Source: Spirochaetia bacterium (GTDB lineage: Bacteria; Spirochaetota; Spirochaetia; Treponematales; Breznakiellaceae). Taken from it: 16,395 nucleotides of DNA. The stretch spans positions 1 to 16,395 of the forward strand of contig BNUY01000060.1 of the NCBI GenBank assembly GCA_025997715.1. The letters run 5' to 3'. A program made the translations under genes and the position numbers. The notes beneath the pieces were generated by a model. The model made no database searches and had not been told where the DNA came from. It saw nothing but the letters and a program-made list of their open reading frames with translations. Positions 1,190-16,369 of the stretch are shown piece after piece (positions within the stretch are counted from its first letter, which is position 1; each line of letters starts with the position of its first letter).

Positions 1190-1197
1190 AGTTTTTA

Positions 1198-1256
1198 GTT
1201 CGGAATTGATTCAATAGCAGAAAATCGTAACATCTGACTATTGGGTTTGACCGAAC
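1198..1256 (+). other. Imperfect hairpin in the spacer after the small ORF
   Basis: GTTCGG (1198-1203) pairs with CCGAAC (1251-1256), and CAATAG (1212-1217) pairs with CTATTG (1238-1243). The bases between the two stems allow several wobble pairs, giving one long hairpin with a loop of about 20 bases. It could be an untranslated structured RNA; no known riboswitch class is recognised. The rest of the 1190-1372 spacer holds no credible gene. Confidence 0.3.
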
Positions 1257-1372
1257 AAAAATGGTAGCCCGTCCAGGCTTATTTGATGCTCCCTCATTGG
1301 CCATTTAGCTAAGCGCCCGCCCAAGGGTGAGTGCTTTCCATTTCCCTTCCCTAAATTGTTATGCTCAAGTCA

Positions 1373-1885
1373 CTATAGCAATGCCTTAACCGAATTGGGA
1401 TCGAAGTTCACGGTGGTTTTAAAGTTCGATTCCGCCAATTTTTCTTCTATTGACTCTTTATCCTTTTTAAACCCCTCAAGCTGGGTTACGATAGCCGTTT
1501 GATCCAGCAGGGGTTCAAGATCTATCTTGTCCTTACCGCCCTCGGTATTGTACTCGTAGCGGACCTTTGCCTGTCTGCGGCACTTGTCCGCAATATCCTC
1601 AAAAAGGGCAATCCTGGCCTTGAGGGTTTCCAGCGCGATAAGGTCCGCACGGTTTACCACATTGGCGCTCTCAATAGCAAGGTTGAGTTCCCGCAGGGAT
1701 GACATTAAGGTATCCACTGCCTTGATGGTTTCCGCAAAGGTCTTGCCGTCAAAAAGCGACGTATTCTCCGCCGTGCCCGCGTCCTTAACGGCATCCGCCC
1801 GGCCTATCTGGGTGGTCAAATTCTTAATCCGTTCCTTGAGCTTATTCCTCAGCCGGAATGCGGAAGCAATGGTCAAATTACCCAT
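1373..1885 (-). CDS. Small coiled-coil protein, DIP1984-family-like
   Basis: This 170-residue protein is almost entirely charged helix. It has an N-terminal segment (about residues 5-30, FRLRNKLKERIKNL), a middle helix with LRELNLAIESANVVNRADL (about 64-82), a helix around LKARIALFEDIADK and a C-terminal helix before VNFDPNSVKALL. The order of a first helix pair, an L-x-x-L-N-x-A-I-x-x-x-N segment and a later E-x-x-x-L-D-x-x-I-like helix resembles the DIP1984 family, sometimes annotated as septicolysin, whose function is poorly defined. There is no signal peptide or membrane segment. The ATG has AGGAGG seven bases upstream. It is divergent from the AAA+ operon and shares a palindrome-containing control region with it. 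The gene is secure; the family assignment is moderate. Confidence 0.7.
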   Translation of the reverse strand: MGNLTIASAFRLRNKLKERIKNLTTQIGRADAVKDAGTAENTSLFDGKTFAETIKAVDTLMSSLRELNLAIESANVVNRADLIALETLKARIALFEDIADKCRRQAKVRYEYNTEGGKDKIDLEPLLDQTAIVTQLEGFKKDKESIEEKLAESNFKTTVNFDPNSVKALL

Positions 1886-1959
1886 GGTGTTCCTCCTGTT
1901 ACTGGTTCCATCATATCATATAAGGAGAATTGGCGTCAGTCTATCAAAATTTCATCAAA

Positions 1960-1981
1960 TATACTAAACGAGTATTTAGTA
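1960..1981. promoter_or_regulatory. Palindrome and -10 box between divergent genes
   Basis: TACTAAA (1962-1968) and TTTAGTA (1975-1981) form a perfect 7-bp inverted repeat with a 6-base spacer. A plus-strand -10-like TATACT occupies 1960-1965, overlapping the left arm. A minus-strand TATATT occupies 1958-1963. No convincing -35 box was found for either. A factor bound here could control the AAA+ operon and the DIP1984-like gene together. Confidence 0.35.
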
Positions 1982-2052
1982 GAAACACAAAAAAAACGCA
2001 TAAATTTTGCGAAATTTCCGGTTAAACCAAAAATTTTTCCTTATATAATAGT

Positions 2053-3753
2053 ATGCAAGGAAACGAAGTACAGGCGGAAAACAATCTTCTTACCCACATC
2101 AGCCGAATCGTCACGCTGTCAAACAAAAAGGGCTTGAGCGATGATTTTTTTGCCGAAGCGGAAGAGCACCTTGAGGCGGTAGGTGAAAAGCTCCGGGTAA
2201 GCCCGGTACAGGCGGTATTGTTTTCCCATTACCTGGGGAATTTCGGCGACTACTCAATAACCAGCGCGGACATTGCGGCGGCGATCCACTGTGACAAAAT
2301 TGAGATGATCCGTTACCTAGATGATATTGACTGCCTTGAACAGAAAAGGCTTATCTATCGCTGCCGAAAAGAGGGCTCATTCTTTGAACAGAGGCGGAAA
2401 GGCAAAGAGGGCGCGGTATACGGCGTCCCGGCGGATGTTGTTGCGGCGATACGGCAAAACAGGGGATACGAGGTTCCAAGAATGGAGAATCTTTCTACGG
2501 CGAAACTTTTCGAGGTATTGGAGGAACTCTTTTCCAAGCGTAAATATGATGAAGTGTCATTTTATAATTTTATGTCCGAGATACGATCCCTATTTGACCA
2601 GAACCCTACCCTTATGTTCGTGCAAACCATCAACGATTTTCGTCTCCCCGATGAAAATCTGGCGTTGCTCCTCTTTTTTTGTAACGCCCTTATCAATAAT
2701 GATGAAAAAACTATCTCCGGCACAGATTTTAACGGAGTATATGAACGGAGGTCGGAGGCAAACAGTGTAAAACGATCGCTCCGGGACAGTACAAACCCGC
2801 TCATCAAGTTGGAGTTGGTTGAAAACGAATGCCGTGACGGCCTGCGGGATACCGAATGTTTCAGGCTTACTGAAAAAGCGAAAACAGAATTGTTGTCTGA
2901 ACTGGAATTACCGGCGCAGCAGGCAAAATACCGGAAGGGCCTTATTGAATACAAAAGTATTGCCAAAAAGACCCTGTTTTACAATAAACGGGAAGCGGAG
3001 GCGATCCGGCGGCTCACCGGGTTATTACATCCCGCACCGTTTAACAAGGTACGGACGCGGCTTGCCAAAAGCGGTATGCGCACCGGATTTGCCTGCCTCT
3101 TTTCCGGCGCGCCGGGTACGGGAAAGACTGAGACCGTCTATCAGATTGCCCGCGCAACAAAACGGCCGATATGTATGGTGAGTATCGCGCAGACCAAAAG
3201 CAAATGGTTTGGCGAAAGTGAACAGAAAATAAAAGGGATATTCGACCGGTACCGCATGATGGTAAAAGAATCCCGCAGCTTAAAACAGCCTGTACCGATA
3301 CTGCTTTTTAACGAAGCCGATGCGGTTATCGGTAAACGCCGCCAACTGGATGATGTCAGATGCAGCCCCGGTCAAACTGAAAACGCCATCCAGAACATTA
3401 TCCTGCAGGAAATGGAAAACCTGGACGGTATTTTGATTGCCACCACCAATTTGACCAATAATATGGACAACGCCTTTGAGCGGCGTTTTCTGTACAAGAT
3501 CGAATTTGAAAAACCCTGCCAGGCGGCCCGTGAGGCAATCTGGAAAACTATGCTGCCCGGTTTATCCGCCGAAGAAACCTGCGAGCTGGCAAGCCGCTAC
3601 GACTTTTCCGGCGGCCAGATTGAAAACATTTCCCGGAAACGCGCCGTGGATGCGGTTCTTGGGGGTGAGGAGCCATCCTTTGATATGATGCTTACCTATT
3701 GCAGTGAAGAACGGAAAAGCAAGCAGCTGATCAGAATTGGTTTTGGGGTGTAG
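2053..3753 (+). CDS. AAA+ ATPase with N-terminal winged-helix-like regions
   Basis: 566 residues. The C-terminal third is a classical AAA module: Walker A GAPGTGKT (352-359), a pore-loop-like segment SKWFGESEQKI (383-393), Walker B ILLFNEAD (416-423), sensor 1 ATTN ending at N466, and arginine-finger candidates R477/R478 in NAFERRF. The KWFGES segment recalls the substrate-threading loop of VPS4/spastin-type and other classical AAA remodellers. The Walker B carries N-E rather than D-E. Two N-terminal stretches look like winged helices (about 55-115, with ITSADIAAAIHCDKIEMIRYL, and about 215-285). It leads five overlapping or closely spaced genes. The ATG at 2053 has little ribosome-site support and lies only three bases after TATAAT (2044-2049). 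An in-frame stop upstream (2023-2025) limits other choices. Role: ATP-driven remodelling or regulation, target unknown. Confidence 0.85.
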   Translation: MQGNEVQAENNLLTHISRIVTLSNKKGLSDDFFAEAEEHLEAVGEKLRVSPVQAVLFSHYLGNFGDYSITSADIAAAIHCDKIEMIRYLDDIDCLEQKRLIYRCRKEGSFFEQRRKGKEGAVYGVPADVVAAIRQNRGYEVPRMENLSTAKLFEVLEELFSKRKYDEVSFYNFMSEIRSLFDQNPTLMFVQTINDFRLPDENLALLLFFCNALINNDEKTISGTDFNGVYERRSEANSVKRSLRDSTNPLIKLELVENECRDGLRDTECFRLTEKAKTELLSELELPAQQAKYRKGLIEYKSIAKKTLFYNKREAEAIRRLTGLLHPAPFNKVRTRLAKSGMRTGFACLFSGAPGTGKTETVYQIARATKRPICMVSIAQTKSKWFGESEQKIKGIFDRYRMMVKESRSLKQPVPILLFNEADAVIGKRRQLDDVRCSPGQTENAIQNIILQEMENLDGILIATTNLTNNMDNAFERRFLYKIEFEKPCQAAREAIWKTMLPGLSAEETCELASRYDFSGGQIENISRKRAVDAVLGGEEPSFDMMLTYCSEERKSKQLIRIGFGV

Positions 3754-3772
3754 GGATAAAGGAGTAACAAGA

Positions 3773-4141
3773 ATGAACAATTACAAAGACTACTTTGAAT
3801 TTGAAGACGGGTCGTATTTTGCGGTCCAAGTAAACGGGAAGAAAGTTTTTATCCAACACGGGAATATTGATCTGTCTATAACATTGGATGGAAACAACCA
3901 CGATGAAATTGAAAAAATGGATAAGGAAACAAGGGTGCATCAAAATATCAGGATAGGCATTTTTGAAACTGAATACGATGCATTGGCCGGAGCGGAGTTA
4001 GAAACCTGGCATTTTATCTTTACGGAGAAACACGACAAAGGCATAAAACTAAAACCGCAAACACCGGCTTTTTGGAAAGCAGCGGTTGAACGTGATTCGC
4101 ATATTCTTGGGTTTGTTCCGGATGAGGATAAGATACAATGA
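3773..4141 (+). CDS. Hypothetical 122-residue protein in the AAA+ operon
   Basis: The chosen ATG has AAAGGAG about seven bases upstream, better than an earlier in-frame start that would overlap the end of the ATPase gene. The protein starts MNNYKDYFEFEDGSYFAVQV and has alternating hydrophobic residues typical of beta strands in its first half, with a charged C-terminus ([10 protein letters not shown]). There is no signal peptide, membrane segment or recognised domain. Its last codons overlap the next ATG by four bases (ATGA at 4138-4141), indicating translational coupling. The gene is well supported by its ribosome site and operon position; its function is unknown. Confidence 0.7.
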   Translation: MNNYKDYFEFEDGSYFAVQVNGKKVFIQHGNIDLSITLDGNNHDEIEKMDKETRVHQNIRIGIFETEYDALAGAELETWHFIFTEKHDKGIKLKPQTPAFWKAAVERDSHILGFVPDEDKIQ

Positions 4142-4449
4142 CAGATACCGAAAAAAATTACTTTGGCAAATTGTTTGAAGGCTTTTCAAAACCGGAACAG
4201 ATAAAAAACGTCCTGGACTTAATGGTTACCGCCAATGCCGGCATCCCGCAGGATCTACTCAACTCGCTTGAAATATGCGGTTTTGAATTGATTGAGCACA
4301 TAAAACAGGAGATGAAACGGAAAGAAGGGATTGAGTATAATGAGTACGATTGGCGGTGTGATAATGCCCGCGATGCAATTGCACTTGTGGATGAGAGCAT
4401 TGAGGTGATTCGCCGGTATTGGACGGTATTTAATAGGGAGGTAAAATGA
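4138..4449 (+). CDS. Hypothetical 103-residue helical protein in the AAA+ operon
   Basis: The gene begins inside the preceding stop (ATGA) and ends in another ATGA overlap with the sigma-like gene at 4446-4449, so three genes are chained by 4-base overlaps. The protein is acidic and mainly helical ([20 protein letters not shown], then [20 protein letters not shown]). There are no metal or catalytic motifs and no membrane segment. The family is not recognised. Position and size would suit an adaptor or partner of the ATPase or of the sigma fragment, but that is inference from context only. Confidence 0.7.
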
Positions 4450-4940
4450 ATTCAGAACCCGCTTTGAACATAACTACGGAACAGGAAAAAGAACTTTTTA
4501 AACAAATGCAAAGTGCAAAGGACAAGCTTATCAATGCAAATCAGCGCCTGGTGGAATCCATCGCCAGGAAGTATATCGACCGGGGGCTCCCCTTCTCCGA
4601 GTTGGTTCAGAAGGGGAACATCGGACTTATCAAGGCAGTGGAGAAGTTTGACTGCCAAAAGGACTTTAAGTTTTCCGCCTACGCCACCTGGTGGATACGC
4701 CAGGCCATCGCCCGGTCCATACCGGGAGAGGCCCGGAACATCCGGGTGTCGGTCTTCATGAGAGAACAGATCAACAAGGTAAGCCGGGAATCACAACTGC
4801 TTGAGAAGATTTTTGGCTGGGAGCCCACGGACGAAGAGATCGCCGGACGGCTCGGCTGGACTGCCCAGCGGGTTAGGTCGATCAGGAATGTTGCGATAGC
4901 TTCAGAATTAGCAGCAATAAAAAGAGCAAATGATGAATAA
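4446..4940 (+). CDS. Truncated sigma-70-like protein: regions 2 and 3.1 only, no region 4
   Basis: 164 residues. Region 1.2/2.1 begins near [21 protein letters not shown] (about 27-47). Region 2.2 is [20 protein letters not shown], and regions 2.3-2.4 are [17 protein letters not shown] (about 76-92). Region 3.1 follows with [14 protein letters not shown] and a second helix-turn-helix [16 protein letters not shown]. The protein ends (RANDE) before the region 3.2 finger and the -35-binding region 4, whereas housekeeping sigma factors continue for about 100 more residues. The -10 contact residues W82, W83 and Q86 remain, but the position equivalent to E. coli RpoD T440 is A89. The reading frame is intact and coupled on both sides, so this looks like a selected short protein rather than decay. 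It may compete for RNA polymerase core or act at extended -10 promoters. Confidence 0.85.
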
Positions 4941-5346
4941 AGGAACCTATGAAGAATGGCTTATATTGGTTCGGCAAGACGGGGCAGCACTGGAAGCTGT
5001 TCCGGAAGAATTTAAAACATCAGAATTATGCGGTGCGGCTGTTGAACAATGCGGCTGGGCCTTACTGTTTGTACCGGAAGAATTGAAAACCCGTGACCTG
5101 TGTTTTGACGCCGTTTGTGGTGCGGGACTTATGCTGGAGCATGTACCGGAACAATTCCGGGATGCAGAACTCTGTTTGGCGGCGGTTGATCATAACGGGT
5201 ACGCGCTCAAGTTTGTTCCCGAGGATGTTATGAACGAAGATATTTGCCTTGCCGCCGTGGACGAGGAGCCAAAGGCGTTTGAGTTTGTGCAGGAGCAGTG
5301 GCGGACAGAGATGGTGCGGGGATCGGCGGGGGTGAACTCTATTTGA
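4930..5346 (+). CDS. DUF4116 repeat protein
   Basis: 138 residues built from about five 24-residue units. The fourth is [20 protein letters not shown], and the others share A-A-V, A-L-x-x-V-P-E and a following charged x-x-L-C start. This is the DUF4116 pattern, found in many bacterial and phage-like proteins and of unknown function, probably a helical solenoid for protein contact. The gene overlaps the sigma-like gene by 11 bases; a second ATG at 4933 is equally possible. The last repeat ([17 protein letters not shown]) has diverged, and the short tail GSAGVNSI ends the operon. No terminator is visible after it. Gene and repeat family are secure, its job is not. Confidence 0.8.
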
Positions 5347-5486
5347 GTTAATCTTGCAAATGCTTCCTCATAGTCCAATGTTTTTGATTCGTTAAGTGCT
5401 TTTAGACCTTCTTGTCCAACGGTTTCAAACACGCCGTATATAGCGCTTGATATGATAGCAAACGCTATATATGGGATTTGTGGCTT
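5347..5486 (-). pseudogene. Gene-like fragment in the spacer, opposite strand
   Basis: On the minus strand, after a stop at 5487-5489, a frame reads PYIAFAIISSAIYGVFETV and then GLKALNESKTLDYEEAFARL, running on into the antisense of the DUF4116 gene. The composition (a hydrophobic stretch followed by a charged helix) looks like real protein. There is no ATG (only an internal GTG) and no ribosome site, so it is probably a remnant of a lost membrane-associated gene, or chance. The rest of the 5347-5583 spacer holds an inverted repeat and a promoter. Confidence 0.25.
5437..5471. repeat. Perfect 9-bp inverted repeat upstream of the GIY-YIG gene
   Basis: TATATAGCG (5437-5445) is the exact reverse complement of CGCTATATA (5463-5471), with a 17-base spacer. 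It ends 33 bases before the -35 box at 5505. It could be a two-site operator or a weak hairpin. There is no T-run after it on either strand, so a terminator role is unlikely. Confidence 0.45.
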
Positions 5487-5504
5487 TCAATGAAAATTTA
5501 GGTA

Positions 5505-5532
5505 TTGACACAGTGGGACGGAGAATTATAAA
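5505..5532 (+). promoter_or_regulatory. Sigma-70 promoter for the GIY-YIG gene
   Basis: A perfect TTGACA (5505-5510) is followed after 16 bases by TATAAA (5527-5532), about 50 bases before the start codon of the nuclease gene. It probably also drives the DUF2779 gene, which follows 31 bases after the first. Confidence 0.65.
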
Positions 5533-5583
5533 ATATGTTTAATCCTATCGTAGATGTTGGGTAATAAATAAGGAGACTTGAAG

Positions 5584-6411
5584 ATGCTTATTCCAAAAGA
5601 AACCGACGGAAATGTTGATGATAAGTTTGACCAAGGACAAATAATCCATCTTGGGAAATATGTCTATGCCTTGAAAGACCCCAGGGACGGAAAGGTCTTT
5701 TATGTTGGGCAGGGGACAGACGAACGGGTATTTAGCCATTTTAAGGGTGCAAGAGCCAGGCTCAAAGATGACCAGCCTGCTTCCAGTAAGGAATTGCGGA
5801 TTCTTGATATATGGAGGGACGATGCGGATGTTGAATGGAGCATCATAGCGTACGCGCTTAAGAAAGATGAAGCAGATCGTGTAGAATCCGCTACAATTGA
5901 CGCTTTGCGGTTGTCCCAAAATGGCGATCCGTTAAATGAAATCAATGGCAAACATTCAACATTTTTATCCAAAGATGAGCTTGCAATGATAGCCGCAGCG
6001 CCTATTAACCCGGAGCAAAAATGTAAGGTTATGATTTTTTCAATTACGAAAACTGCTAATTCAAAGTCGTCACCGGATGATATTTATAAAGCAACCCGTA
6101 TGGATTGGAAAGTAGCAGAGAAATATCGTAATCCTTCGGATGACTACTATGCAGTGGGGCTTGTATCGCAAGTTTCTATTGGGGGTTATAAAATTAAAAA
6201 ATGGAAGTCAGGTAATGATGGTCGTTGGCGTTTTGAAAGAGATCCTGAGGAGGCATCATTCCTTGTTAAAAAAAACTGGAAAAATATCATCTACCCTGCT
6301 ATGGGATATTTCCAGCTGGGAAATTACCTTATCGTTGAATTTGATGGTAATGGTAAGTTTCGGTTTCTACGTGGCGGCGGTACTAATTCAGAATGGCATT
6401 CTGTAGAATAA
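5584..6411 (+). CDS. LEM-3-like GIY-YIG nuclease domain protein
   Basis: 275 residues. The N-terminal domain carries the GIY-YIG signature in the form YVYAL (26-30) and YVGQG (40-44) with a following R48, a glutamate at about E101 in RVESATIDAL, and NEINGKH (118-124). This is the LEM-3-like variant of the endonuclease fold, in which the tyrosines, arginine and glutamate cut DNA with a divalent metal. The C-terminal half (from about 140: DIYKATRMDWKV, then YYAVGLVSQV and beta-rich segments to the end) resembles the companion domain commonly fused to this variant; its role is unknown. The ATG at 5584 is eight bases after AAGGAG and is preferred over TTG at 5578, which is too close. Its GC content is lower than that of the downstream core genes. 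The DNA target is unknown. Confidence 0.8.
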   Translation: MLIPKETDGNVDDKFDQGQIIHLGKYVYALKDPRDGKVFYVGQGTDERVFSHFKGARARLKDDQPASSKELRILDIWRDDADVEWSIIAYALKKDEADRVESATIDALRLSQNGDPLNEINGKHSTFLSKDELAMIAAAPINPEQKCKVMIFSITKTANSKSSPDDIYKATRMDWKVAEKYRNPSDDYYAVGLVSQVSIGGYKIKKWKSGNDGRWRFERDPEEASFLVKKNWKNIIYPAMGYFQLGNYLIVEFDGNGKFRFLRGGGTNSEWHSVE

Positions 6412-6442
6412 CTATCAACTAATCCTCAAAGGAGTCCCCTTC

Positions 6443-7984
6443 ATGAACCTCTCCAAATCCCGCTATTGTTCCGGCTTACAATGCCCCAAAATCCTCTGGC
6501 TTAATCAAAACAAGCATGAGGTGTACGATAAATCCGTCGAAAATACTGCCATCCTGGAACAGGGCAGTGTAGTGGGCGATCTCGCCATGGGGTATTATGG
6601 CGCATATATCGAGGCGCCGTTCAACAAAGATGATAAATCCGCGATGATTGTGGAAACCAAACGCTTGCTGGCCGCCGGGTGTAAAACAATCGGCGAGGCC
6701 TCTTTCGCCTTTGAGGGCAACTTTTGCAGTGTTGATATTCTGCGTGTTTTTGATGGGTATGTGGAAATTACCGAAGTAAAGAGTTCCACTGCAGGGGGAG
6801 ATGAGGACGATGTTGCTGTTGTGGACGAAAAGGCCGATTCCCAGGTCAAAGACATATATCTGCATGATATGGCTTTTCAGTACTATGTGCTTACCGGCGC
6901 GGGATACACGGTAAAGAAAACAACCCTGCTGCAGCTGAACCGTACGTACTACCGGGACGGCGATATCGATCTGCAGCAGCTCTTTATTGCGGAAGACTGT
7001 ACCGGGCGGGTGTTGGATCTGCAGCAGGGTATCAAAAGCAATCTTGACGAAATCAACGCCCTTGCTGACCTGAAAACCGAACCGGAAAGAGAAATCGGTA
7101 TGCAGTGCATAAAACCGTATCTCTGCGGGTTTAAAAAGTATTGCTGGCGGCATATCCCCGAAAACAGCGTCTTTGCTATTAACGGGACCGCGATGCATTG
7201 GAACAAAAAATTTGCAAGCCACGCACGGGGAATAACGACCTTTGAACAAATGCTTGAATCGGGCGAAAAACTAAGCCCCGCGGTCCTGCTACAGGTGAAG
7301 ACGGAAGTAGAAAAACAATCGGCTTTCACCGATAAACCCGCTATTAAGGAATTTTTGCAAACCATCACGTATCCGGTTTATCATCTTGATTTTGAAACCT
7401 TCATGCCTGCCATTCCGCCCTATAACGGTACCCATCCGTATTCGCAAATCCCCTTTCAATATTCACTCCACATACAGGAGGAGCCGGGCGCCGAACCGGT
7501 TCACAAGGAGTTTTTGGCAAAAGAGGGAACCGACCCGCGCCGTGCCCTTGCTGAACGGCTCTGTGCCGATATTCCCAAAAATGTCTGTACCCTTGCGTGG
7601 AATATGTCCTTTGAAAGGGGCCGCATAAAGACCCTCGCAAAGGAATTCCCCGATCTGGCGGACCACCTCATGAACATACACGACCATATTGTTGATCTCA
7701 TAGTGCCCTTCCGTTCCCATGATTATTATGATCGGGGCTTTAAGGGGCGTTCATCAATTAAGCTGGTACTGCCCGCCCTTTTCCCCAATGACCCGGAACT
7801 TGATTACAAGTCCCTGCACGGTATACACAACGGCGGTGAGGCAATGAACGCTTTCCTGAATCTGCACACAAAAACACCGGAAGAAATCGCCCAAATCCGC
7901 GCCGACTTGCTTGCCTACTGCCGCCTTGATACGCTGGCGATGGTCAAAATATTGGATAAACTGCACGAAGTAATGGTTGAATGA
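6443..7984 (+). CDS. DUF2779 protein: PD-(D/E)XK nuclease with DEDDy exonuclease and Cys cluster
   Basis: 513 residues. It starts MNLSKSRYCSGLQCPK with Cys9 and Cys14. A RecB/Cas4-like PD-(D/E)XK core follows, with D98 in SVDILRV and E111-V-K113. CIKPYLCGFKKYC supplies Cys222, Cys228 and Cys234, which with an N-terminal cysteine could bind an iron-sulfur cluster as in Cas4 and AddB. The second half is a DnaQ-type exonuclease: HLDFETF (D316, E318), AWNMSFE around N387, and YCRLD (Y492, D496) as motif III of the DEDDy class. This is the DUF2779 architecture, whose role is not settled. AAAGGAG lies nine bases before the ATG. The gene follows the GIY-YIG gene by 31 bases and is probably co-transcribed, pairing two nuclease types. 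No CRISPR array or cas gene is nearby. Confidence 0.85.
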   Translation: MNLSKSRYCSGLQCPKILWLNQNKHEVYDKSVENTAILEQGSVVGDLAMGYYGAYIEAPFNKDDKSAMIVETKRLLAAGCKTIGEASFAFEGNFCSVDILRVFDGYVEITEVKSSTAGGDEDDVAVVDEKADSQVKDIYLHDMAFQYYVLTGAGYTVKKTTLLQLNRTYYRDGDIDLQQLFIAEDCTGRVLDLQQGIKSNLDEINALADLKTEPEREIGMQCIKPYLCGFKKYCWRHIPENSVFAINGTAMHWNKKFASHARGITTFEQMLESGEKLSPAVLLQVKTEVEKQSAFTDKPAIKEFLQTITYPVYHLDFETFMPAIPPYNGTHPYSQIPFQYSLHIQEEPGAEPVHKEFLAKEGTDPRRALAERLCADIPKNVCTLAWNMSFERGRIKTLAKEFPDLADHLMNIHDHIVDLIVPFRSHDYYDRGFKGRSSIKLVLPALFPNDPELDYKSLHGIHNGGEAMNAFLNLHTKTPEEIAQIRADLLAYCRLDTLAMVKILDKLHEVMVE

Positions 7985-8005
7985 CCGCGAAGGAGGCAAA
8001 ACAAA

Positions 8006-8995
8006 ATGGGCATTTCTGGCCATCGTGATAAAATTAGAAGAAATGATAGCACCTACAAAACCATCCTTCCTTTGCATGAGGGAGATACCACCGATTACAG
8101 CCACCGAAAGGGAAAGGAAATAGCCGGTCTTAAAATAGATGAAGGAGTTACCGCCATACGCGCCTGTTTTGCGCATAACGAACTGACCGATCTGGTGATT
8201 CCCGACTCCGTTACCGAAATCGCCGGTGACGCCTTTATGTACAACTTGCTTAAGTCTCTTAGCCTGCCCAGAGGACTTACCTGCATTGATATTAGAGTAT
8301 TTGCGTATAATCGCCTGGAAAGCCTGGTGATTCCCGATTCAGTTACGGAAATTAAAAGCACGGCTTTTTATTCAAACCGGCTTACGGAGGTTAAACTGCC
8401 GGAAGGCCTTAAGTTTATCCGGAACCAGGTATTTATGCATAACTGTCTGACCCACATTGAGATTCCCGACTCCGTTACGGAAATCTGGGATGAAGCTTTT
8501 AAGTCAAACCAGCTTACGGAGGTTAAGCTGCCTAAAGGTCTTGAGCGGATAGATAACGGCGCCTTTATGAATAATTGTTTGGAAAGTTTTGAGATTCCCG
8601 ATTCCGTTACATCAATTGGCGATGACGCTTTTAAATCAAACCGCATTAGGTATATTAAACTACCCGAGGGTCTTGAAGACATAGCAAATGGTCTTGAGAA
8701 TATTGGCTCCAGGGTTTTTGGGAATAACAAGCTTGAACGCATTGTGCTCCCCATGAGTCTCAAATGGATTAGCGATACTGCCTTTAAAGGCAATCCCATC
8801 ACCAGTATTACTATCGGTGCAAACATTCAAGGGCAGCAATATTCTGACGACTTTACGCCTGCATTGCTGCCAAGTCCAACCGCTTTTGGTGTTTACGGGG
8901 TAAGTTTTATTGACAGCTATATTTATAACAATACTGCGGCCGGAACCTACGAATATGACAAGGCCGTAAAAAAATGGAATTATACGGAACCATAA
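8006..8995 (+). CDS. BspA/TpLRR-type leucine-rich repeat protein
   Basis: 329 residues with about ten tandem 23-residue repeats between roughly residues 45 and 265. Two repeat types alternate: IPDSVTEIxxxAF and LPEGLxxIxxxxF, giving a 46-residue supra-unit. One late unit carries an inserted near-duplication (GLEDIANGLENIGS). The C-terminal 60 residues (from ITIGANIQG) form a non-repeat cap. This is the Treponema pallidum-type LRR (LRR_5) seen in BspA surface proteins, which bind host or bacterial partners. However, no signal peptide is visible at MGISGHRDKIRR, so this copy may be cytoplasmic or exported another way. GGAGG lies about ten bases before the ATG, and the gene follows the DUF2779 stop by 21 bases. 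The spacer after it (8996-9115) holds a bulged GC hairpin near 9000-9036 without a T-run. Confidence 0.88.
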   Translation: MGISGHRDKIRRNDSTYKTILPLHEGDTTDYSHRKGKEIAGLKIDEGVTAIRACFAHNELTDLVIPDSVTEIAGDAFMYNLLKSLSLPRGLTCIDIRVFAYNRLESLVIPDSVTEIKSTAFYSNRLTEVKLPEGLKFIRNQVFMHNCLTHIEIPDSVTEIWDEAFKSNQLTEVKLPKGLERIDNGAFMNNCLESFEIPDSVTSIGDDAFKSNRIRYIKLPEGLEDIANGLENIGSRVFGNNKLERIVLPMSLKWISDTAFKGNPITSITIGANIQGQQYSDDFTPALLPSPTAFGVYGVSFIDSYIYNNTAAGTYEYDKAVKKWNYTEP

Positions 8996-9048
8996 ATTCG
9001 AGTGAAGGCGGCTTGCAGCCAACATTCCACCGCCTCGAAAAAGAGATA

Positions 9049-9115: not shown

Positions 9116-11692
9116 ATGGCTTCCCAAGATGACAAACCGCCGGTAGTGACCGGAAAAATAATCCCCATTGCGATAGAAGACGAGGTTCGGACCGACTACC
9201 TGACCTATGCCATGTCGGTCATTGTGGCCCGGGCTCTGCCGGATGTGCGGGACGGCCTTAAACCGGTGCACCGGCGGCTGCTCTACGCCATGGACGACCT
9301 GGGGCTCCGTCCCAATGCGGCCACCAAGAAAAGCGCCCGTATCGTCGGTGACGCCATGGGAAAGTACCACCCCCATGGGGATGCCTCCCTCTACGACGCC
9401 ATGGTTCGTATGGCCCAGGAATTTTCCCTGCGCTATCCCGTGGTTCATGGGCAGGGTAACTTCGGTTCGATAGACGGCGACCCCCCTGCGGCCATGCGGT
9501 ATACCGAGGCCAAGCTTTCCAAGGTCGGTGACGAGATGCTCCAGGACCTGCACAAGGAGACCGTCGATTTTGTTCCCAACTACGATGAATCCCTGACGGA
9601 ACCGTCGGTATTGCCCGCAGCGGTGCCCAACCTCCTGGTAAATGGGTCCAGCGGTATCGCCGTAGGTATGGCCACCAACATGGCCCCCCACAATATGGTG
9701 GAAGTCTGCGATGCGGTCTGCGCCTATATCGACAACCCGGAAATCACCATCGAAGAACTGATGAAGTACGTAACCGGGCCGGACTTCCCCACCGGGGGGC
9801 TCATTTTTGGCCGCCGGGGTATCCGGGAGGCCTACAAAACCGGCCGGGGGAAGATCCTGGTCCGGGGCCGCTTTGCCGTGGAGACCACCAAGTCCGGCAA
9901 GGAACTCATTGTCTTTAACGAAATTCCTTATAATGTGAACAAAAAATTATTGCTGGAGCGTATCGGTATCCTCGTCCGGGATAAGGTGATTGACGGCATT
10001 TCCGCATTTAATGACGAATCAGACCGGGACGGTATCCGGGTGGTGATTGAGCTGAAGAAGGGGGCGATCCTCAAGGTCGTGCTGAACCAGCTTTTTTCCA
10101 ACACCCAGCTCCAGACCACCTTTGGGATCATCAACCTGGCCCTGGTTAATGGGCGTCCTCAGACGCTCAACCTCAAAGAACTTATCCACTACTTTGTGGA
10201 ACACCGGGTTGATGTGGTTACCCGCCGGACCCAATACGACCTGCGCAAGGCCGAAGAGCGCGCCCATATCTTAGAGGGATTGGTTATCGCCCTGGCAAAC
10301 ATTGACGAGGTGGTGGCCATCATCAAAGCCTCACGGGATATCAATACCGCCAAGGCCAAACTGCAGGAACGGTTTTTGCTCACCGAGGTTCAGGCCCAGG
10401 CCATTGTGGATATGCGCCTGGGACGGCTCACCAGCCTGGAAGTTGAAAAACTGGAGCAGGAACTGGCGGAACTCAAGGTCCAGATTGCCTACTATAAATC
10501 CCTGCTGGAAGATAGCAATAAACTGCAGGGGGTCATCAAGGACGAAACCCGTGACATATCCCAGCGGTATGGGGACAAGCGCCGCACCGAAATCGTCCAC
10601 GGTGAGGTGGAGAATATCAACATCGAGGACCTTATTAAAAAGGAAGAGATGATGATCCTCATTTCCAACCTGGGCTACGTGAAGCGGGTACCCGTTACGG
10701 CCTACAAAAACCAGGGCCGCGGCGGCAAGGGCATGATCAGCGCCAAGCTCAACGAAGACGACTTTGTGGAGCAGATTTTCGTTGCCTCCACCCACGAATA
10801 CATTACCTTCATCACCAGCGCGGGCAAGGCCTACTGGATGAAGGTCCACGAGATTCCCGAGGGAACCAGGACCGGCAAGGGCGCCCACATCAAGAGCCTC
10901 CTCACGGTTTTGCCGAATGAAGAAATAACCGCCATTGTGTCCCTCAAGGACTTTACCGATGACCGGTACCTGTTCATGGGGACCGCCCGGGGGGTAGTCA
11001 AAAAGGTACAGACCAGCGAATTCGCCAATGCCAAGACCCGGGGCAAAATTGCCATCAGGCTGGACGAGGGGGATAAGCTGGTCAGCGCCCTCCTTACCGG
11101 CGGCTCAGACGAGGTGGTCCTCATCTCCCGGAAAGGCCAGGCCCTCCGTACCCACGAGGATGCCGTTCGTGCCATGGGCCGGGCCGGCCACGGCGTTACC
11201 GGTATGAAGCTGGACGATGATGACGAACTGACCGGCGTCCTGCGGGTGGTTGCAGAGGAAACCATGCTTCTCCTTTCGGAATACGGCTTTGGCAAGCGGG
11301 TGGACTTTAGCGAGTTTAGTTCCCACGGGCGAGGCACACGGGGTCAGAAAATCTACACGGTCAGCGACAAAACCGGGGAACTGGTGGGCTGCGTCAATGT
11401 CCTGGATAACGAGGAAATCATGTGTATCACCAGCCAGGGCAAGTCTATCAAGCTCAAGGTGGCGTCCATTCGGGTTATGGGCCGCAGCGCCCAGGGGGTG
11501 CGGATACTCAGTATCGACAAGCCCGATTTTGTCATCGGGGTAGACCGGATTGTGAAGGAAGATGATGCCGAGGAGGCAGTCAAAGAGGCCGAGGTCGGCA
11601 ATACCGCGGATGAGGATGGCGATACCGAAACTCAGGGTTATGGGAATGTTTCACGTGAAACAGAAACCCCGGACGATGAAACCGAAAACTAG
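9116..11692 (+). CDS. gyrA: DNA gyrase subunit A
   Basis: 858 residues, full length. GyrA cuts and rejoins DNA in the GyrA2B2 enzyme that introduces negative supercoils. The N-terminal winged-helix/tower part has [20 protein letters not shown] and the catalytic pair R128-Y129 in AMRYTE. The C-terminal beta-pinwheel carries a GyrA-box QGRGGKG (533-539), which separates it from topoisomerase IV ParC. In the quinolone pocket [11 protein letters not shown]90 stands where E. coli has Ser83, while D94 (E. coli Asp87) is kept. Position 90 is also alanine in Mycobacterium tuberculosis, which is naturally less quinolone-sensitive, so reduced sensitivity is a reasonable inference here. An acidic tail from about residue 815 ends the protein, and its codons contain a parS site. 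No gyrB, dnaA or recF is in the window. Confidence 0.98.
11647..11662. other. parS: parS site inside the gyrA coding region
   Basis: TGTTTCACGTGAAACA is an exact 16-bp palindrome identical to the bacterial ParB-binding consensus. In gyrA it encodes most of N844-V-S-R-E-T849, the residue string typical of in-gene parS sites. ParB would nucleate here for chromosome segregation with ParA and SMC. Confidence 0.93.
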
Positions 11693-11729
11693 TAGGTAGA
11701 CACCATTGACAATGTGTATGAAGAATGTA

Positions 11730-11811
11730 AACCACCGACCACACGGACAATACGGACAAAAGAAAAAGACAGGCAAAAAACCAGTCCGTCTTGTCCGTGT
11801 GGTCCGTGGTT
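11730..11811. repeat. Long inverted repeat after gyrA (28-bp arms)
   Basis: The left arm (11730-11757) and right arm (11784-11811) are reverse complements over 28 bases with two mismatches, separated by a 26-base A-rich loop. The right arm is itself three 9-base tandem units: GTCCGTCTT, GTCCGTGTG and GTCCGTGGT. The RNA hairpin would be very stable and is followed by ATTTATTCTTT, so it may end gyrA transcription, though the stem is far longer than a normal terminator. It may instead be a dispersed REP-like repeat. Confidence 0.8.
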
Positions 11812-11860
11812 ATTTATTCTTTCGCCGGTATACACAAGTTAGTTCGGGGGGGGAATCCTG

Positions 11861-12544
11861 ATGTATTTTGATTACTACTATCTTATCCTCGTGGTACCCA
11901 CTCTTATCCTTTCGATTTGGGCTCAGATAAAGGTCAAATCCACCTTTGGGAAATATTCCCGGATACGGAACGGACGGAATATGACCGGCCGTGATGCGGC
12001 GGAACTTTTGCTGCAGGTAAACGGTATCCGGGATGTGGCCATAGAGCCTGTGGGTGGCTCCCTGACGGATCACTACGATCCCTCTTCCAAGGTGCTGCGC
12101 CTTTCCAAGCCCGTGTACGGCCAATCTTCTATCGCCGCTATTGGGGTCGCCACCCATGAAACGGGCCATGCCATCCAGTACGCCCGTTCCTACGGCCCCC
12201 TGATCCTTCGGAGCACCCTGGTTCCGGTGGCAAATATCGGTTCCTCCTTTGGTCCCTGGCTGGCGGTGGCGGGTCTCGTTTTTTCCTTCTCATGGCTGAT
12301 CAATTTAGGCATCATCCTCTTTGGCGTGGCGGTACTCTTCTATGTGATAACCCTGCCGGTGGAGTTTAACGCCTCCGCCCGTGCCCTGGCCATTCTGCGG
12401 GACAACAAGGTACTTAACCCCGACGAACTCCGGGGGGTACGGAAGGTACTGAGCGCCGCCGCCATGACCTATGTGGCATCCGCCCTTACCGCCCTCATGA
12501 GCTTCCTGCGGCTCATCCTCCTTTCTCGGAACCGCCGCCGCTAA
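11861..12544 (+). CDS. Membrane zinc metallopeptidase, YugP family
   Basis: 227 residues. A membrane segment at about 6-22 (YYLILVVPTLILSIWAQ) is followed by the zinc site HETGH (H99-E100-H103), hydrophobic segments at about 133-147 and 149-166, the candidate third ligand E168 in LPVEFNAS, and a last segment around 203-222. This is the pattern of the YugP/Zn_peptidase_2 family of integral-membrane peptidases; natural substrates are not established. The end is very basic (SRNRRR). The ATG has only a G-run (GGGGGGG) about seven bases upstream as ribosome site. The gene stands between the long inverted repeat and a lipoprotein gene and probably has its own promoter, though none is clear. Confidence 0.9.
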   Translation: MYFDYYYLILVVPTLILSIWAQIKVKSTFGKYSRIRNGRNMTGRDAAELLLQVNGIRDVAIEPVGGSLTDHYDPSSKVLRLSKPVYGQSSIAAIGVATHETGHAIQYARSYGPLILRSTLVPVANIGSSFGPWLAVAGLVFSFSWLINLGIILFGVAVLFYVITLPVEFNASARALAILRDNKVLNPDELRGVRKVLSAAAMTYVASALTALMSFLRLILLSRNRRR

Positions 12545-12593
12545 ACTTTGTCTTCCCAGCTATTTTTCGTATACTTATATCAGGAGTGTAATT

Positions 12594-13112
12594 ATGCAAA
12601 AAACTTTGAGCAGCCTTGCCTTGGGCTTAGCGGTCGTTTTGACTTTTGCCGGTTGTGCTCAGACCGGTAGGTCTGTTAGCAAGAGCGACGTGGTGGTGGA
12701 GACCATTGAGGTGAGTTCTTCCTTTGATGAGGTTCAGGGGAAAGCGTGGATACTGGATGAACTGGTAAGTGAGGCTGGCACTACGATCATTAACCGGCAG
12801 AAATTGGGCGCCGATGGCATGGGGGATGCCTTTACTCTGATTGTCGATAAGCAACGGATAAGTGGCAAAGCGGCGCCTAACCGGTATCTATCTCCCTATA
12901 CCCTAGGCCCTGACCAGGAGATTTCTATAAGCCCCATCGCCGGAACCCTTATGATGAGCATTGTGGAACCCGAGGGCATCCAGGAACGGGAGTACTACAA
13001 CTACCTGGAACAGGTAAACCAATGGCGCTTAACCGGCGATAAGCTTGAACTATATTCCGAGACCCCCGAGGGAGATCCGATAATCCTGGTCTATATCTCT
13101 AAAGAACTATAG
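12594..13112 (+). CDS. META-domain (HslJ-like) lipoprotein
   Basis: 172 residues. A lipoprotein signal MQKTLSSLALGLAVVLTFAGC ends in the lipobox cysteine C21, so the mature protein is a lipid-anchored envelope protein. The rest resembles the META domain seen in HslJ: a tryptophan-containing first strand WILDEL (about 53), FTLIVD, ISGKAAPNRYLSPY (about 90-103), ISISPIAGTLMMS (about 111-123) and WRLTGDKLELY (about 143-153). The usual G-x-G-x-x-x-C-N is changed to GKAAPNRY. META domains occur in heat-induced or virulence-related outer-membrane proteins and may mediate binding. AGGAG lies nine bases before the ATG. A -10-like TATACT (12570-12575) lies just upstream, with a weak -35. Confidence 0.8.
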   Translation: MQKTLSSLALGLAVVLTFAGCAQTGRSVSKSDVVVETIEVSSSFDEVQGKAWILDELVSEAGTTIINRQKLGADGMGDAFTLIVDKQRISGKAAPNRYLSPYTLGPDQEISISPIAGTLMMSIVEPEGIQEREYYNYLEQVNQWRLTGDKLELYSETPEGDPIILVYISKEL

Positions 13113-13189
13113 CGAGTTCCCCCAGTAAGTAAAGCCCCGGAGTAATCCGGTATATATATAGAAGAGATCTTCAAAAGAGGCTAAAACAG

Positions 13190-13687
13190 ATGTCGATTGA
13201 GCAGGTACGTGACTATTTAAAACGCTGGAACCGGGATACGGACATTATTGAAATGGAAGCTTCCACGGCCACGGTTTTGGAGGCGGCCAATGCCCTGGGG
13301 GTTATCCCTGCCCGGATTGCCAAGAGCATTTCCCTTAAACAGGGGGGTGGGGGGTCGCCGGTAGGGGCCATGGTGATTGTCGTCGCCGGGGATGTGAAGC
13401 TGGATAACCGCAAATACAAGGATCACTTTGGCGTAAAGGCCAAGATGCTCAGCCCCGAGGAAGCCCTTCAGTTCACCGGTCATGCGGTTGGCGGGGTTTG
13501 CCCCTTCGGCCTTCCCCCGGAGCTTCCGGTCTACCTTGATGTTTCCATGAAAAGGTTCACCACCGTATTTCCCGCCTGCGGTAGCGGCAATTCCGCCATA
13601 GAACTGACCCTGGATGAACTCAATGAATATTCCCAAAACAAGGAATGGGTGGATGTCTGTAAACCTATTAATGAAGTCGAGCCTTAG
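13190..13687 (+). CDS. YbaK/EbsC-family aminoacyl-tRNA deacylase
   Basis: 165 residues, about the usual size for a stand-alone YbaK domain. Diagnostic parts are IARIAKSISLK with the conserved lysine K45, VIVVAGDVKLDNRK (about 62-75) and TGHAVGGVCPFGL (96-108), followed by YLDVSMKRF and VFPACGSGNSAIEL. The family hydrolyses misacylated tRNA, classically Cys-tRNAPro in YbaK, with other members acting on Ala-tRNAPro. Which substrate this member uses cannot be read from the sequence. AGAGG lies about nine bases upstream of the ATG. The 77-base spacer before it contains a small CCGGA/TCCGG hairpin and TATATATA, a possible promoter. A parS site follows nine bases after the stop. Confidence 0.9.
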   Translation: MSIEQVRDYLKRWNRDTDIIEMEASTATVLEAANALGVIPARIAKSISLKQGGGGSPVGAMVIVVAGDVKLDNRKYKDHFGVKAKMLSPEEALQFTGHAVGGVCPFGLPPELPVYLDVSMKRFTTVFPACGSGNSAIELTLDELNEYSQNKEWVDVCKPINEVEP

Positions 13688-13696
13688 TCCGATGAA

Positions 13697-13712
13697 TGTT
13701 TCACGTGAAACA
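13697..13712. other. parS: parS site between convergent genes
   Basis: A second exact TGTTTCACGTGAAACA, 2,050 bases from the copy in gyrA. It is intergenic, between the YbaK-type gene and the convergent four-helix-bundle gene. It is followed by TTTTT on the plus strand, so the palindrome might also help end transcription. Confidence 0.93.
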
Positions 13713-13756
13713 TTTTTGTCTGTTTCTCCCATCCGGTAAGCACAGCCAGGGGATCA

Positions 13757-14221
13757 TCATCCTTTCTTTGTTGCTGTAGGCGTTGGCGGTACCGTTATTA
13801 TGGTCTGCGTCGTTAAAGTTCGCCCCGGTGATGTAGGGGTAGCTGGTGCGCCGGGGGCTGCCGGTGTACCGGATCCTGCTTTGAGGGATTTTATCGTATA
13901 GAATAGGATTTTCCGCAGTTCGTCACAATCCTGGATACCGGTGGTGGATTCGAATTCCGTTATAAAATCGGCTTCCTTGAGGATTTCCAGCCAATATTTA
14001 GTTGCCGCGCATTTCTGGAGCGCCTCCTGAAGCTTTGCCAGAAAGGCATCTTTGTTGGCCGCACATTCGGCTTCCACAAGGTTTGCCCCAATCCCGGTAC
14101 CGGCCTGCAAAAGCTGCTCGGACATGATATGCTCTTTTTTGTTATTGGCGAGGTTCTTGTAAAGCTGGACAATCTTAGCCGCGAATTGTCTGGTTTTTGC
14201 TTTTGTTTCGTTATTATCCAT
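13757..14221 (-). CDS. Four-helix-bundle protein (S23 family) with Pro/Thr-rich tail
   Basis: 154 residues. The first 115 match the family of small four-helix-bundle proteins first seen in 23S rRNA intervening sequences: RQFAAKIVQLYKNL, EQLLQAGTGIGANLVEA (about 35-51), then FLAKLQEALQKCAATKYWLEIL (about 59-80). The ancestral name S23 is misleading, and most members, including free-standing ones, have no proven role. From about residue 117 a low-complexity tail (GSGTPAAPGAPATP and on) rich in proline, threonine and alanine is added and is not part of the family. AGGAG lies seven bases before the ATG. No rRNA gene is nearby, so an rRNA intervening-sequence role is not suggested. Confidence 0.85.
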   Translation of the reverse strand: MDNNETKAKTRQFAAKIVQLYKNLANNKKEHIMSEQLLQAGTGIGANLVEAECAANKDAFLAKLQEALQKCAATKYWLEILKEADFITEFESTTGIQDCDELRKILFYTIKSLKAGSGTPAAPGAPATPTSPGRTLTTQTIITVPPTPTATKKG

Positions 14222-14234
14222 ACCAGACTCCTAA

Positions 14235-14336
14235 TCACAGACGATTCTCTTCAGTTAAAGCATATCTAATCCCTTCGGTCAAGGCCTTAAGGTGCTCATA
14301 AAAACCGGGAACCTGCTTGTTTGATTCCACTAACAT
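14235..14336 (-). pseudogene. Small ORF or gene remnant upstream of the four-helix-bundle gene
   Basis: A 33-residue frame (MLVESNKQVPGFYEHLKALT, ending TEENRL) stops 13 bases before the four-helix-bundle ATG. A second gene-like frame overlaps its upstream part: from just after the methyltransferase stop it reads FLANTIIGMSELALRAEYV, then diverges. The two look like one ORF broken by a frameshift, or a small coupled gene. No good ribosome site precedes the ATG. The remaining bases of the 14222-14412 spacer hold nothing else recognisable. Confidence 0.3.
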
Positions 14337-14412: not shown

Positions 14413-15261
14413 TTAGGCGTAAGCGGCCGCCCATGCCTGTAATGCTATGCCGAAAGCTACCGATACGTTGAGGGAACCCTTGGCGCCGTAGGTGGGGATA
14501 GAGAGGCGGCCCAGGGAAGTGTCTGCGGCGGCCAGGGCTTGCGGACTTACCCCCAACTCTTCGGAACCGACAATCATTACCGCGTGTTTGGGAAAGGGGA
14601 AGTGGGCGATATCAATGCCGCCGGTTTCCAGGGCAAAGACGGGGGTTGTTGATAAAGCCTGGGGAAATTGTAAAGGCAGCCCGGTAAATTCGACGGCAAG
14701 GCGTTCCCAGGGAAGAATATCCGTACAGCCCATGGCGGTCCGTTTAGCCCGGGGGTGATTGGGGTCCGCGCAGAGGGGCGATAGATAGAGCTTTTCGACC
14801 CCGAAAGATTCGGCGGCCCGGAACATGGCCCCCACGTTAAAGGGGGAGCGGATATCCTCCAGGTAGACCCGCATTCCCGGGAAGGGGTGGCGTTTTCCGG
14901 GGTCAAGGCTGCCTCCGGCGTCGATAAAATCCCAGTCGGCGGTCTGCTTCCCCGTAGCGGTGAGGAGAATGTGGCGGACCGTGTTGATGGCCCGGCGGAT
15001 GGAAGCCCGACATTCGTCGCCAGTATCCTCCGGGGCGTATGTTCGCAGGCTGCCAAGGGCGGCGCTGAGGGCTTGCCGGACGGTGGGGGGAAAGGCACCG
15101 TCTTGGGTCAGGGTTTGCAGGGTATCCGTCAGATAGGGTAGTTCTCTACTTGCAACGAAGTTCCCGGCGCAGAGACGGAGTTCGGCTTCGGCGAAAGTTT
15201 TGGCGATTTTCCGGAGGCGCTGGGGACGGGGGAGTTGGGCGAGTTTATGGAGGGGGATCAT
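14413..15261 (-). CDS. SpoU/TrmH-family RNA 2'-O-methyltransferase
   Basis: 282 residues. The SPOUT knot is in the C-terminal half: motif 1 IRSPFNVGAMFRAAESFG (137-154), motif 2 MIVGSEELGVS (229-239) and motif 3 LSIPTYGAKGSLNVSVAFG (253-271). Asparagine, arginine and the SLNVSVA loop bind S-adenosylmethionine and place the RNA ribose. The first 125 residues form a helical, arginine-rich N-terminal domain (ASIRRAINTVRHIL), probably for RNA binding. The target nucleotide in tRNA or rRNA cannot be deduced. The start ATG at 15261 has only AGGT upstream as ribosome site. A -10-like TATAAT lies at 15281-15286 on this strand, suggesting its own promoter after the flgM terminator. Confidence 0.9.
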   Translation of the reverse strand: MIPLHKLAQLPRPQRLRKIAKTFAEAELRLCAGNFVASRELPYLTDTLQTLTQDGAFPPTVRQALSAALGSLRTYAPEDTGDECRASIRRAINTVRHILLTATGKQTADWDFIDAGGSLDPGKRHPFPGMRVYLEDIRSPFNVGAMFRAAESFGVEKLYLSPLCADPNHPRAKRTAMGCTDILPWERLAVEFTGLPLQFPQALSTTPVFALETGGIDIAHFPFPKHAVMIVGSEELGVSPQALAAADTSLGRLSIPTYGAKGSLNVSVAFGIALQAWAAAYA

Positions 15262-15349: not shown

Positions 15350-15634
15350 TTATATCCCGAAGACATCTATAATCTTATCGGCCGTGGCATTCAATAGAGT
15401 CTCGTTGATATAGGAAGGGTCGTTGATCTTTTTCTTCATCTCTTCAATGCGGTCCGCCCTGACATCCGGGGCTGCCATGATGAGCTCTTTTACCCGATAC
15501 AGCTCAGCCTGCTCCCGGGCTTCCGAGGAGAGGGAAATCGAGTCGGTTTTCTCACTCTGACTTACTTGACCGCTCCGTCCGGGCTTTTTACCGGGCTGAA
15601 TGGGTTCTATGGGACCAATTCCGTTGACCGTCAT
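15350..15634 (-). CDS. flgM: Anti-sigma-28 factor FlgM
   Basis: 94 residues from the preferred ATG at 15634. FlgM binds the flagellar sigma-28 factor and holds back late flagellar genes until the hook is complete. The N-terminus MTVNGIGPIEPIQP and a middle part SISLSSEAREQAELYRVKEL fit the family, followed by C-terminal helices DRIEEMKKKIND and LLNATADKIIDVFG, the sigma-binding region. An earlier ATG at 15640 adds two residues but lies too near the AGGA ribosome site, which is seven bases from 15634. A sigma-28-type promoter is directly upstream, so FlgM probably feeds back on its own transcription. Confidence 0.88.
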   Translation of the reverse strand: MTVNGIGPIEPIQPGKKPGRSGQVSQSEKTDSISLSSEAREQAELYRVKELIMAAPDVRADRIEEMKKKINDPSYINETLLNATADKIIDVFGI

Positions 15635-15656
15635 ACTCATATCCTACCTACCCCAA

Positions 15657-15684
15657 TTATCGGCATTTATCTGTTAATAGTTTA
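15657..15684 (-). promoter_or_regulatory. Sigma-28 (FliA-type) promoter of flgM
   Basis: On the minus strand TAAA (15684-15681) is followed after 16 bases by GCCGATAA (15664-15657), an exact match to the flagellar sigma-28 -10 element. The classical spacing is 15. The -35 element overlaps the last codons (V-N-Y-stop) of rsmI. The transcript would start about 15 bases before the flgM ATG, leaving a very short leader with the AGGA ribosome site. Confidence 0.7.
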
Positions 15685-16369
15685 CACGATTTTTGGATTT
15701 CTTTCCAGATACAAACACCGAAAATTCGCCCATTTGCCTGTTTTTTTCTGTTAAAACAAGCAGAATCTCCGCTACAGAACCCCGGAGATATTCCTCGTGT
15801 ACCTTAGTCATTTCCCTGCCCACACATACATATCGTTCATTATCAAGATCGGCCAGATCCGTCAAAAGCTTGAGAACCCTGAAGGGAGATTCGTAGAGAA
15901 CAAAGGCGGTTTCCATGTCCAGGAGTTCCTTCAGCCGGGAACGCCGCCGGCCGGCCTTCGGTGAGAGGAAGCCCTCAAAAACCACGGTTTTGTCCATGCC
16001 GCCTGAAACGCTAACCAGGGAAGCAAAGGCGGAAGGGCCCGGGATGGGGATCACCGTATGCCCGGCCTCCGCGGCAAGCCGCACCAGCAGGTTGCCGGGA
16101 TCGCTCAAAGCCGGAGTTCCGGCGTCACTGGCATAGGCCACGGTTTTGCCCTCCTTAAGGGAAGCAATCACCTTTTCGGCGGCGAATTCCTCATTTTGAG
16201 CGCGGCAGGAGAGCAGGGGAATGCGCAGACCCAGGTGGCTTAGCAGTTTGAGGGTACGGCGGGTATCTTCGCAGGCAACGAGGTCAACGGTTTTAAGGAT
16301 TTCCACCGCCCGGAAGCTGATATCCCCCAGGTTCCCTATGGGCGTGCCGATAATATACAAGGTTGACAC
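15674..16369 (-). CDS. rsmI: 16S rRNA (cytidine1402-2'-O)-methyltransferase RsmI
   Basis: 231 residues. RsmI adds the 2'-O-methyl group at C1402 in the decoding centre of 16S rRNA. Family motifs are TPIGNLGD (9-16), CEDTRRT (33-39), SDAGTPALSDPG (81-92) and PIPGPSA (108-114), the tetrapyrrole-methylase-type S-adenosylmethionine site. Many RsmI proteins have about 280 residues with an extra C-terminal domain; this one ends soon after FSVFVSGKK, so that domain is missing. The start used is GTG at 16369, fitting the family beginning STLYIIGTP, but no ribosome site is visible. The frame stays open to the window edge, so an upstream start cannot be excluded. The gene precedes flgM, whose promoter overlaps its 3' end. 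Confidence 0.93.
   Translation of the reverse strand: MSTLYIIGTPIGNLGDISFRAVEILKTVDLVACEDTRRTLKLLSHLGLRIPLLSCRAQNEEFAAEKVIASLKEGKTVAYASDAGTPALSDPGNLLVRLAAEAGHTVIPIPGPSAFASLVSVSGGMDKTVVFEGFLSPKAGRRRSRLKELLDMETAFVLYESPFRVLKLLTDLADLDNERYVCVGREMTKVHEEYLRGSVAEILLVLTEKNRQMGEFSVFVSGKKSKNRVNY

Follow-up and report, generated by a model that had tools for sequence, protein, structure and literature searches.

Do two copies of a short palindrome at the gyrA end of a spirochaete contig serve as parS, the site at which ParB loads, and does this end of the contig lie close to the replication origin? These questions are raised by contig C60 of a Spirochaetia metagenome-assembled genome (MAG), the whole of which (16,395 nt) is called the window here. 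The source MAG (G000) is a fragmented genome of 3.38 Mb in 447 contigs and is 76.9% complete. We compared it with a set of 57 genomes, which comprised the MAG itself, four others of its genus, and further members of the family and order. A second set consisted of 60 named spirochaete-titled loci (L123-L181 and L183), in 58 of which the gyrA stop was located. Some named loci duplicate genomes of the first set (L133/G005, L180/G028, L167/G024), so that tallies from the two sets are not independent. The reversed 16-mer was used as the control pattern in parS searches. Our results suggest that the window very probably carries two working chromosomal parS sites, and an origin-proximal position of the block around them is well supported by comparison with relatives.

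Two exact palindromes at gene ends

The original prediction had reported two perfect parS copies about 2 kb apart and had considered such a 16-mer very rare by chance. Both statements were borne out. The palindrome TGTTTCACGTGAAACA is present exactly at two positions of the window (Table 1), and no further parS-like site was found in the window at up to three mismatches. As in the original prediction, we take this 16-mer to be the ParB consensus; it is of the Bacillus subtilis type. Under a first-order Markov model, 2.6e-6 exact copies were expected per window and 5.4e-4 per 3.38 Mb. When the window was shuffled 200 times with its dinucleotides preserved, the mean number of matches at up to three mismatches was 0.05, and at least two matches appeared in 1 of the 200 shuffles. 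From these letters, we infer that ParB would bind both 16-mers.

Site 1 is intragenic in gyrA and not intergenic, a point that had been missed before. The GyrA tail around it is acidic and variable. The equivalent site is exact and in the same place in the congener G001, and it has one mismatch in G002, where the last base is changed synonymously. The peptide VSRET is kept in G000, G001, and G002. This in-frame conservation favors an explanation in which the 16-mers are coding or chance matches, the GyrA tail needing NVSRET at site 1 and site 2 being accidental. However, a near relative (locus L123) has the same kind of acidic GyrA tail without the site and the peptide, and it carries parS after ybaK instead. 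Site 2 lies outside the called genes, and the exact-copy expectation given above also argues against chance. We consider the coding or chance explanation extremely improbable. The overlap of site 1 with gyrA is most simply read as a parS sitting in, or taken up by, the fast-changing acidic tail of GyrA.

The offset of site 2 past the ybaK stop is the same in G001 as in the window, and it is 1 nt in L123, 5 nt in G032, and 2 nt in G015. In the complete congener G003, a parS lies within the 3' end of the ybaK frame. An open reading frame (ORF) on the opposite strand of the window (13217-13732) spans site 2 and overlaps ybaK. Both sites are located at gene 3' ends and, among the relatives, they are found on either side of the stop codon.

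Palindromes in this position might chiefly be gene-end hairpins of gyrA and ybaK, acting as weak terminators or mRNA 3' ends, with ParB binding secondary. Many of the relatives' sites are located 0-80 nt past the 3' ends of gyrA, ybaK, META, or arfB. TTTTTG follows site 2, and the fold energy of the site 2 RNA was -9.1 kcal/mol (z -1.94, with 11 of 200 shuffles as good), compared with -6.6 kcal/mol (z -2.12, 7 of 200 shuffles) on the other strand. However, a terminator scan of positions 11400-14300 reported neither site, and the five terminators that it did report compare with 3.4 in shuffles. Site 1 lies in an open frame without a T run, and its fold gave z -1.09 (29 of 200 shuffles as good). 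Exact parS was found in 37 of the 57 genomes (own included) versus 0/57 for the reversed control. A hairpin would not need these exact letters, which are those of the ParB consensus. On the basis of the terminator scan and the RNA folds, a terminator was rejected as the main role, and the hairpin explanation as a whole appears very unlikely.

ParA, ParB, and the other parS copies in the MAG

A genome without parB would not agree with the original prediction. In this MAG, a parAB operon is present on contig C19 with overlapping ORFs for ParA (L020:6221-7021) and ParB (L020:7011-7949). ParA matched Pfam AAA_31, and ParB matched Pfam ParB_N, HTH_ParB, and ParB_C, which are the N-terminal, helix-turn-helix, and dimerisation domains. 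ParB also matched solved ParB/Spo0J chains (1vz0, 3e-60; 6t1f, 9.4e-49) and carries the GERR and ENVQR boxes. Identity to the G001 proteins is 99.6% for ParA and 97.1% for ParB; they therefore belong to this genome and are not mis-binned.

The residues of the MAG ParB at Caulobacter-equivalent positions 173, 201, 179, and 184 are R, G, A, and K, as numbered by us on an alignment to the solved ParB/Spo0J chains. A previous report states that R173 and G201 are absolutely conserved in ParB and are Q and R in Noc (PMC7383237). The identification of the two sites as Noc binding sites (NBS) was rejected, since it requires a partner with Q173 and R201 and the MAG ParB has R and G. Its domains and R/G residues indicate that the MAG ParB is of the parS-binding type.

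Scanning of the whole MAG gave five exact parS copies, none at one or two mismatches, and 17 at three mismatches. The reversed control gave seven matches at up to three mismatches and none at up to two. Contig C161 (L019, 1-5898, 5.9 kb) carries exact parS at 2240, 2557, and 5796, the last within a long repetitive ORF (3688-5898). The ArfB of C161 shares 69-70% identity with its counterparts in G001 and G002, and those two share 86% with each other. Ten distinct loci from other members of the family have an ArfB match that ends at most about 113 nt from parS, and no parS was found in the ArfB stretches of G001, G002, and G003. A nucleotide search with C161 against the collected loci gave similarity in the ArfB gene only, at best 83.6% over 403 nt (L142). 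Because its ArfB is too divergent from that of the congeners, C161 is probably mis-binned and would be the parS region of another family member, a judgement that rests on this one gene. A count of five parS sites for this genome was rejected on the same basis. A parS count from a MAG can be misleading if the bin includes a foreign contig.

The presence of C161 in the same MAG also favors the possibility that the two sites of the window lie on a contaminating or acquired segment and not in the centromere region of the host. However, from gyrA through the RsmI-like gene, the window and G001 have the same gene order with identities of 94-100%, and most of the block is common to the complete genome G003. 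We give this explanation next to no probability.

Distance to the origin and to gyrA

The gyrA side of the window had been predicted to be origin-proximal and part of a centromere-like region. Synteny with G003 and the dnaA distances in relatives support this prediction. G003 has 4,059,867 bases, with dnaA at 712 and gyrA at 4,052,479-4,054,953. Its parS sites are located at 4,046,627 and 4,047,447, which is 12.4-13.2 kb before the record end, and the gene adjoining the record end was named gyrB by reading. Past gyrA, the order META - ybaK - parS - IVP - spoU - flgM - rsmI is the same in the window and in G003, with extra ORFs interposed in the G003 block (transporter-like ORFs, a second META copy, and an aldolase-like ORF). 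This block is about 13 kb from dnaA and from the GC-skew switch of G003. Of the 9 slices sampled between 0 and 1.6 Mb, 7 had positive skew, and of the 11 from 1.8 Mb onward, 10 had negative skew. The switch fell at the record junction; the slices at 0.6, 1.0, and 2.4 Mb ran contrary to the trend.

Exact parS and dnaA shared a contig in 19 of the other 36 genomes that have exact parS, and in 17 of these no exact site was more than 20 kb from dnaA. Five genomes with exact parS consist of a single contig. In three of them (G003, G031, and G032), the sites were at most 6 kb from gyrA and at most 17 kb from dnaA. The synteny with G003 near dnaA and the skew switch, together with the 17 of 19 relatives, makes an origin-proximal position of the window parS block a well-supported prediction. 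A review cites Livny et al. 2007 for parS in almost 70% of 400 species, with about 75% of these having it no farther from ori than 5% of the genome (PMC8242196).

We also determined how closely parS is associated with gyrA. Searches of the 57 genomes found gyrA in 51 (own included, E <= 1e-100), DnaA in 49, and ParB in 51. Both gyrA and exact parS were on one contig in 23 of the 37 genomes with exact parS. In 21 of the 23, the exact sites were located at or beyond the 3' end of the gyrA match, from -42 to +5837 nt relative to that end. The other two, G035 and G038, which belong to one genus, have parS 100 and 171 kb from gyrA. This tally covers exact parS only and excludes 14 genomes whose gyrA lay on a different contig or was not found, as well as the three C161 sites of the MAG; two gyrA pieces of G033 were counted as one, and the gyrA end of G024 was taken from a separate comparison. 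Among the named loci, 27 have at least 6.5 kb past gyrA, and 14 of these have an exact parS and 15 a parS at up to one mismatch between -150 and +6500 nt. The 31 shorter named loci gave parS in 5. In L173, L174, L178, G045, and G039, parS lies 2-8 nt past the gyrA stop. The neighborhood of parS and gyrA is common but loose, and it is not universal.

Several observations weigh against these readings. In the MAG, three of the five exact parS are on the probably foreign contig, no dnaA match was found, and no true gyrB was found, the best gyrB-family match (399.7 bits) being rejected as gyrB because it is under the family cut-off of 882.4. This match is probably parE. Because dnaA was not matched and the gyrB-family match is below the cut-off, the MAG probably lacks the origin region itself, and the distance to the origin is therefore derived from relatives. 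G035 and G038 have parS 275-339 kb from dnaA, and they are the two single-contig genomes in which parS was not close to gyrA and dnaA. No exact site was found in 20 of the 57 genomes, and none at up to two mismatches in nine. Most of these nine genomes are incomplete, whereas completeness reaches 97-98% in G013, G020, and G036. Matches at up to two mismatches occurred in 48/57 genomes, yet the reversed control gave them in 20/57; weak matches therefore mean little and were not taken as evidence. The same-contig counts are biased toward nearness because many contigs are short. Finally, 12 of the 27 named loci with at least 6.5 kb past gyrA have no parS at up to one mismatch (L126, L128, L142, L143, L145, L146, L150, L153, L155, L164, L166, and L172), where parS was sought downstream of gyrA only.

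The parS loci of G035 and G038 are L099 (G035:C1:2498000-2515000) and L100 (G038:C1:330000-347000). Most 20-kb slices of G035 have negative skew before a point near 2.54 Mb and positive skew after it; parS is about 35 kb away from this point and dnaA about 240 kb. The corresponding turn in G038 falls at 140-180 kb, in the vicinity of gyrA and some 160-200 kb from parS. Both signals are weak and sampled. The sign change is away from dnaA in both genomes, nearer to parS in G035 and nearer to gyrA in G038.

Of 76 distinct sites selected by their inner letters, 71 had T and 66 had A at the free outer positions of the 16-mer, and outside the 16-mer only a weak A/T preference was seen. In G053, from another family of the order, two TGTTCCACGTGGAACA palindromes are located inside the gyrA tail (L097 9282 and 9331, G053:C25). 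Sites with one arm of the TGTTCCACGTGGAACA form were among the matches listed for G047, G056, and G044 of the same family. These forms suggest that a variant parS may be used in that family. In the Balneolota-type records L184, L185, and L194 (Gracilimonas, Balneolales), parS is 1.6-2.5 kb downstream of gyrA, by chance or through an old link.

A stronger interpretation would be that parS at the gyrA 3' end is selected, recurring in several spirochaete families and overlapping the frame in one genus and, as TGTTCCACGTGGAACA, in G053. Through ParB loaded there, gyrase expression or local supercoiling could be coupled to how the segregation complex stands. We regard this interpretation as highly doubtful. 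In the literature, nothing on parS in Treponema or on parS beside gyrA was found by title or abstract start, and absence from print is not claimed.

Gene neighborhood and comparison with known systems

The features from gyrA to the end of the window are listed in Table 1. Gene identities between 9116 and 16369 are based on Pfam domain matches, and membership in the conserved block is based on comparison with G001 and G003.

Table 1. Features of the window from gyrA onward
Feature	Position	Strand	Remarks
gyrA, DNA gyrase subunit A	9116..11692	+	acidic C-terminal tail containing parS site 1; Pfam DNA_topoisoIV, DNA_gyraseA_C
parS site 1, exact palindrome	11647..11662	.	inside gyrA frame; encodes VSRET (within NVSRET); ends 27 nt before stop codon
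putative neutral zinc metallopeptidase	11861..12544	+	PF04298; present in G001, not found after gyrA in G003
META-domain (HslJ-like) gene	12594..13112	+	member of conserved block
YbaK-type aminoacyl-tRNA editing domain protein (ybaK)	13190..13687	+	member of conserved block
parS site 2, exact palindrome	13697..13712	.	starts 10 nt past last base of ybaK stop, between convergent genes
23S rRNA-intervening-sequence protein (IVP)	13757..14221	-	PF05635; member of conserved block
SpoU-family rRNA methyltransferase (spoU)	14413..15261	-	member of conserved block
FlgM (flgM)	15350..15640	-	member of conserved block
tetrapyrrole-methylase-family protein, RsmI by reading (rsmI)	15674..16369	-	member of conserved block

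On the 5' side of gyrA (positions 1-9000), ORF reading gave a metallo-beta-lactamase-fold gene, an AAA ATPase, a short sigma-factor-like gene, and a leucine-rich-repeat gene. Neither gyrB nor dnaA was among the window genes left of gyrA by this reading, and the arrangement in G003 would predict gyrB there. Similarly, the first 13.8 kb of G001:C1 has no gyrB or dnaA among ORFs of at least 150 aa. Since neither gene was found in either place, gyrA is probably parted from gyrB in this group.

In ParABS systems, ParB loads at parS, spreads, recruits structural maintenance of chromosomes (SMC) proteins, and parts the origins together with ParA, according to previous reports (PMC8242196, PMC9712426, PMC7083940). 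By analogy, ParB from the parAB operon elsewhere in this genome would bind each 16-bp palindrome and load as a clamp, and it would then slide across the neighboring DNA from gyrA to rsmI. The loaded ParB would recruit condensin (SMC), and its movement by ParA would separate the newly copied origin regions. For these two sites, binding, cytidine triphosphate-dependent sliding, SMC loading, and segregation are all extrapolated from other bacteria.

The two sites are a new instance of a well-known element, a finding that is real but expected. They locate the centromere-like region in a spirochaete chromosome that is still unfinished. Modest interest attaches to the overlap with gyrA and to the frequent nearness of parS and gyrA. 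The result suggests that, in fragmented genomes of this order, parS near gyrA is a helpful, although far from sure, landmark of the origin region.

The locus resembles the chromosomal parS of the B. subtilis type in having the same 16-bp palindrome, two copies within 2 kb, a parAB operon in the genome, and an origin-proximal position in G003. In contrast to that type, one copy here is inside gyrA, and parAB is distant from the sites, being on another contig in the MAG and with the best parB at 1.42 Mb in G003. The spirochaete Borrelia burgdorferi also has an oriC-proximal parS, which lies inside a broad ParB peak from chromatin immunoprecipitation sequencing, and its ParB recruits SMC; however, its parA and parB are close to parS and ParZ is used, whereas parAB here is on another contig (PMC9712426). 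In Corynebacterium glutamicum, a previous study describes a cluster of 16-bp parS near oriC with one of the ten in a coding sequence (trpCF), and a parS within a gene is therefore not new (PMC7083940). The ten sites of C. glutamicum extend over 35 kb, whereas the two sites described here lie within 2 kb.

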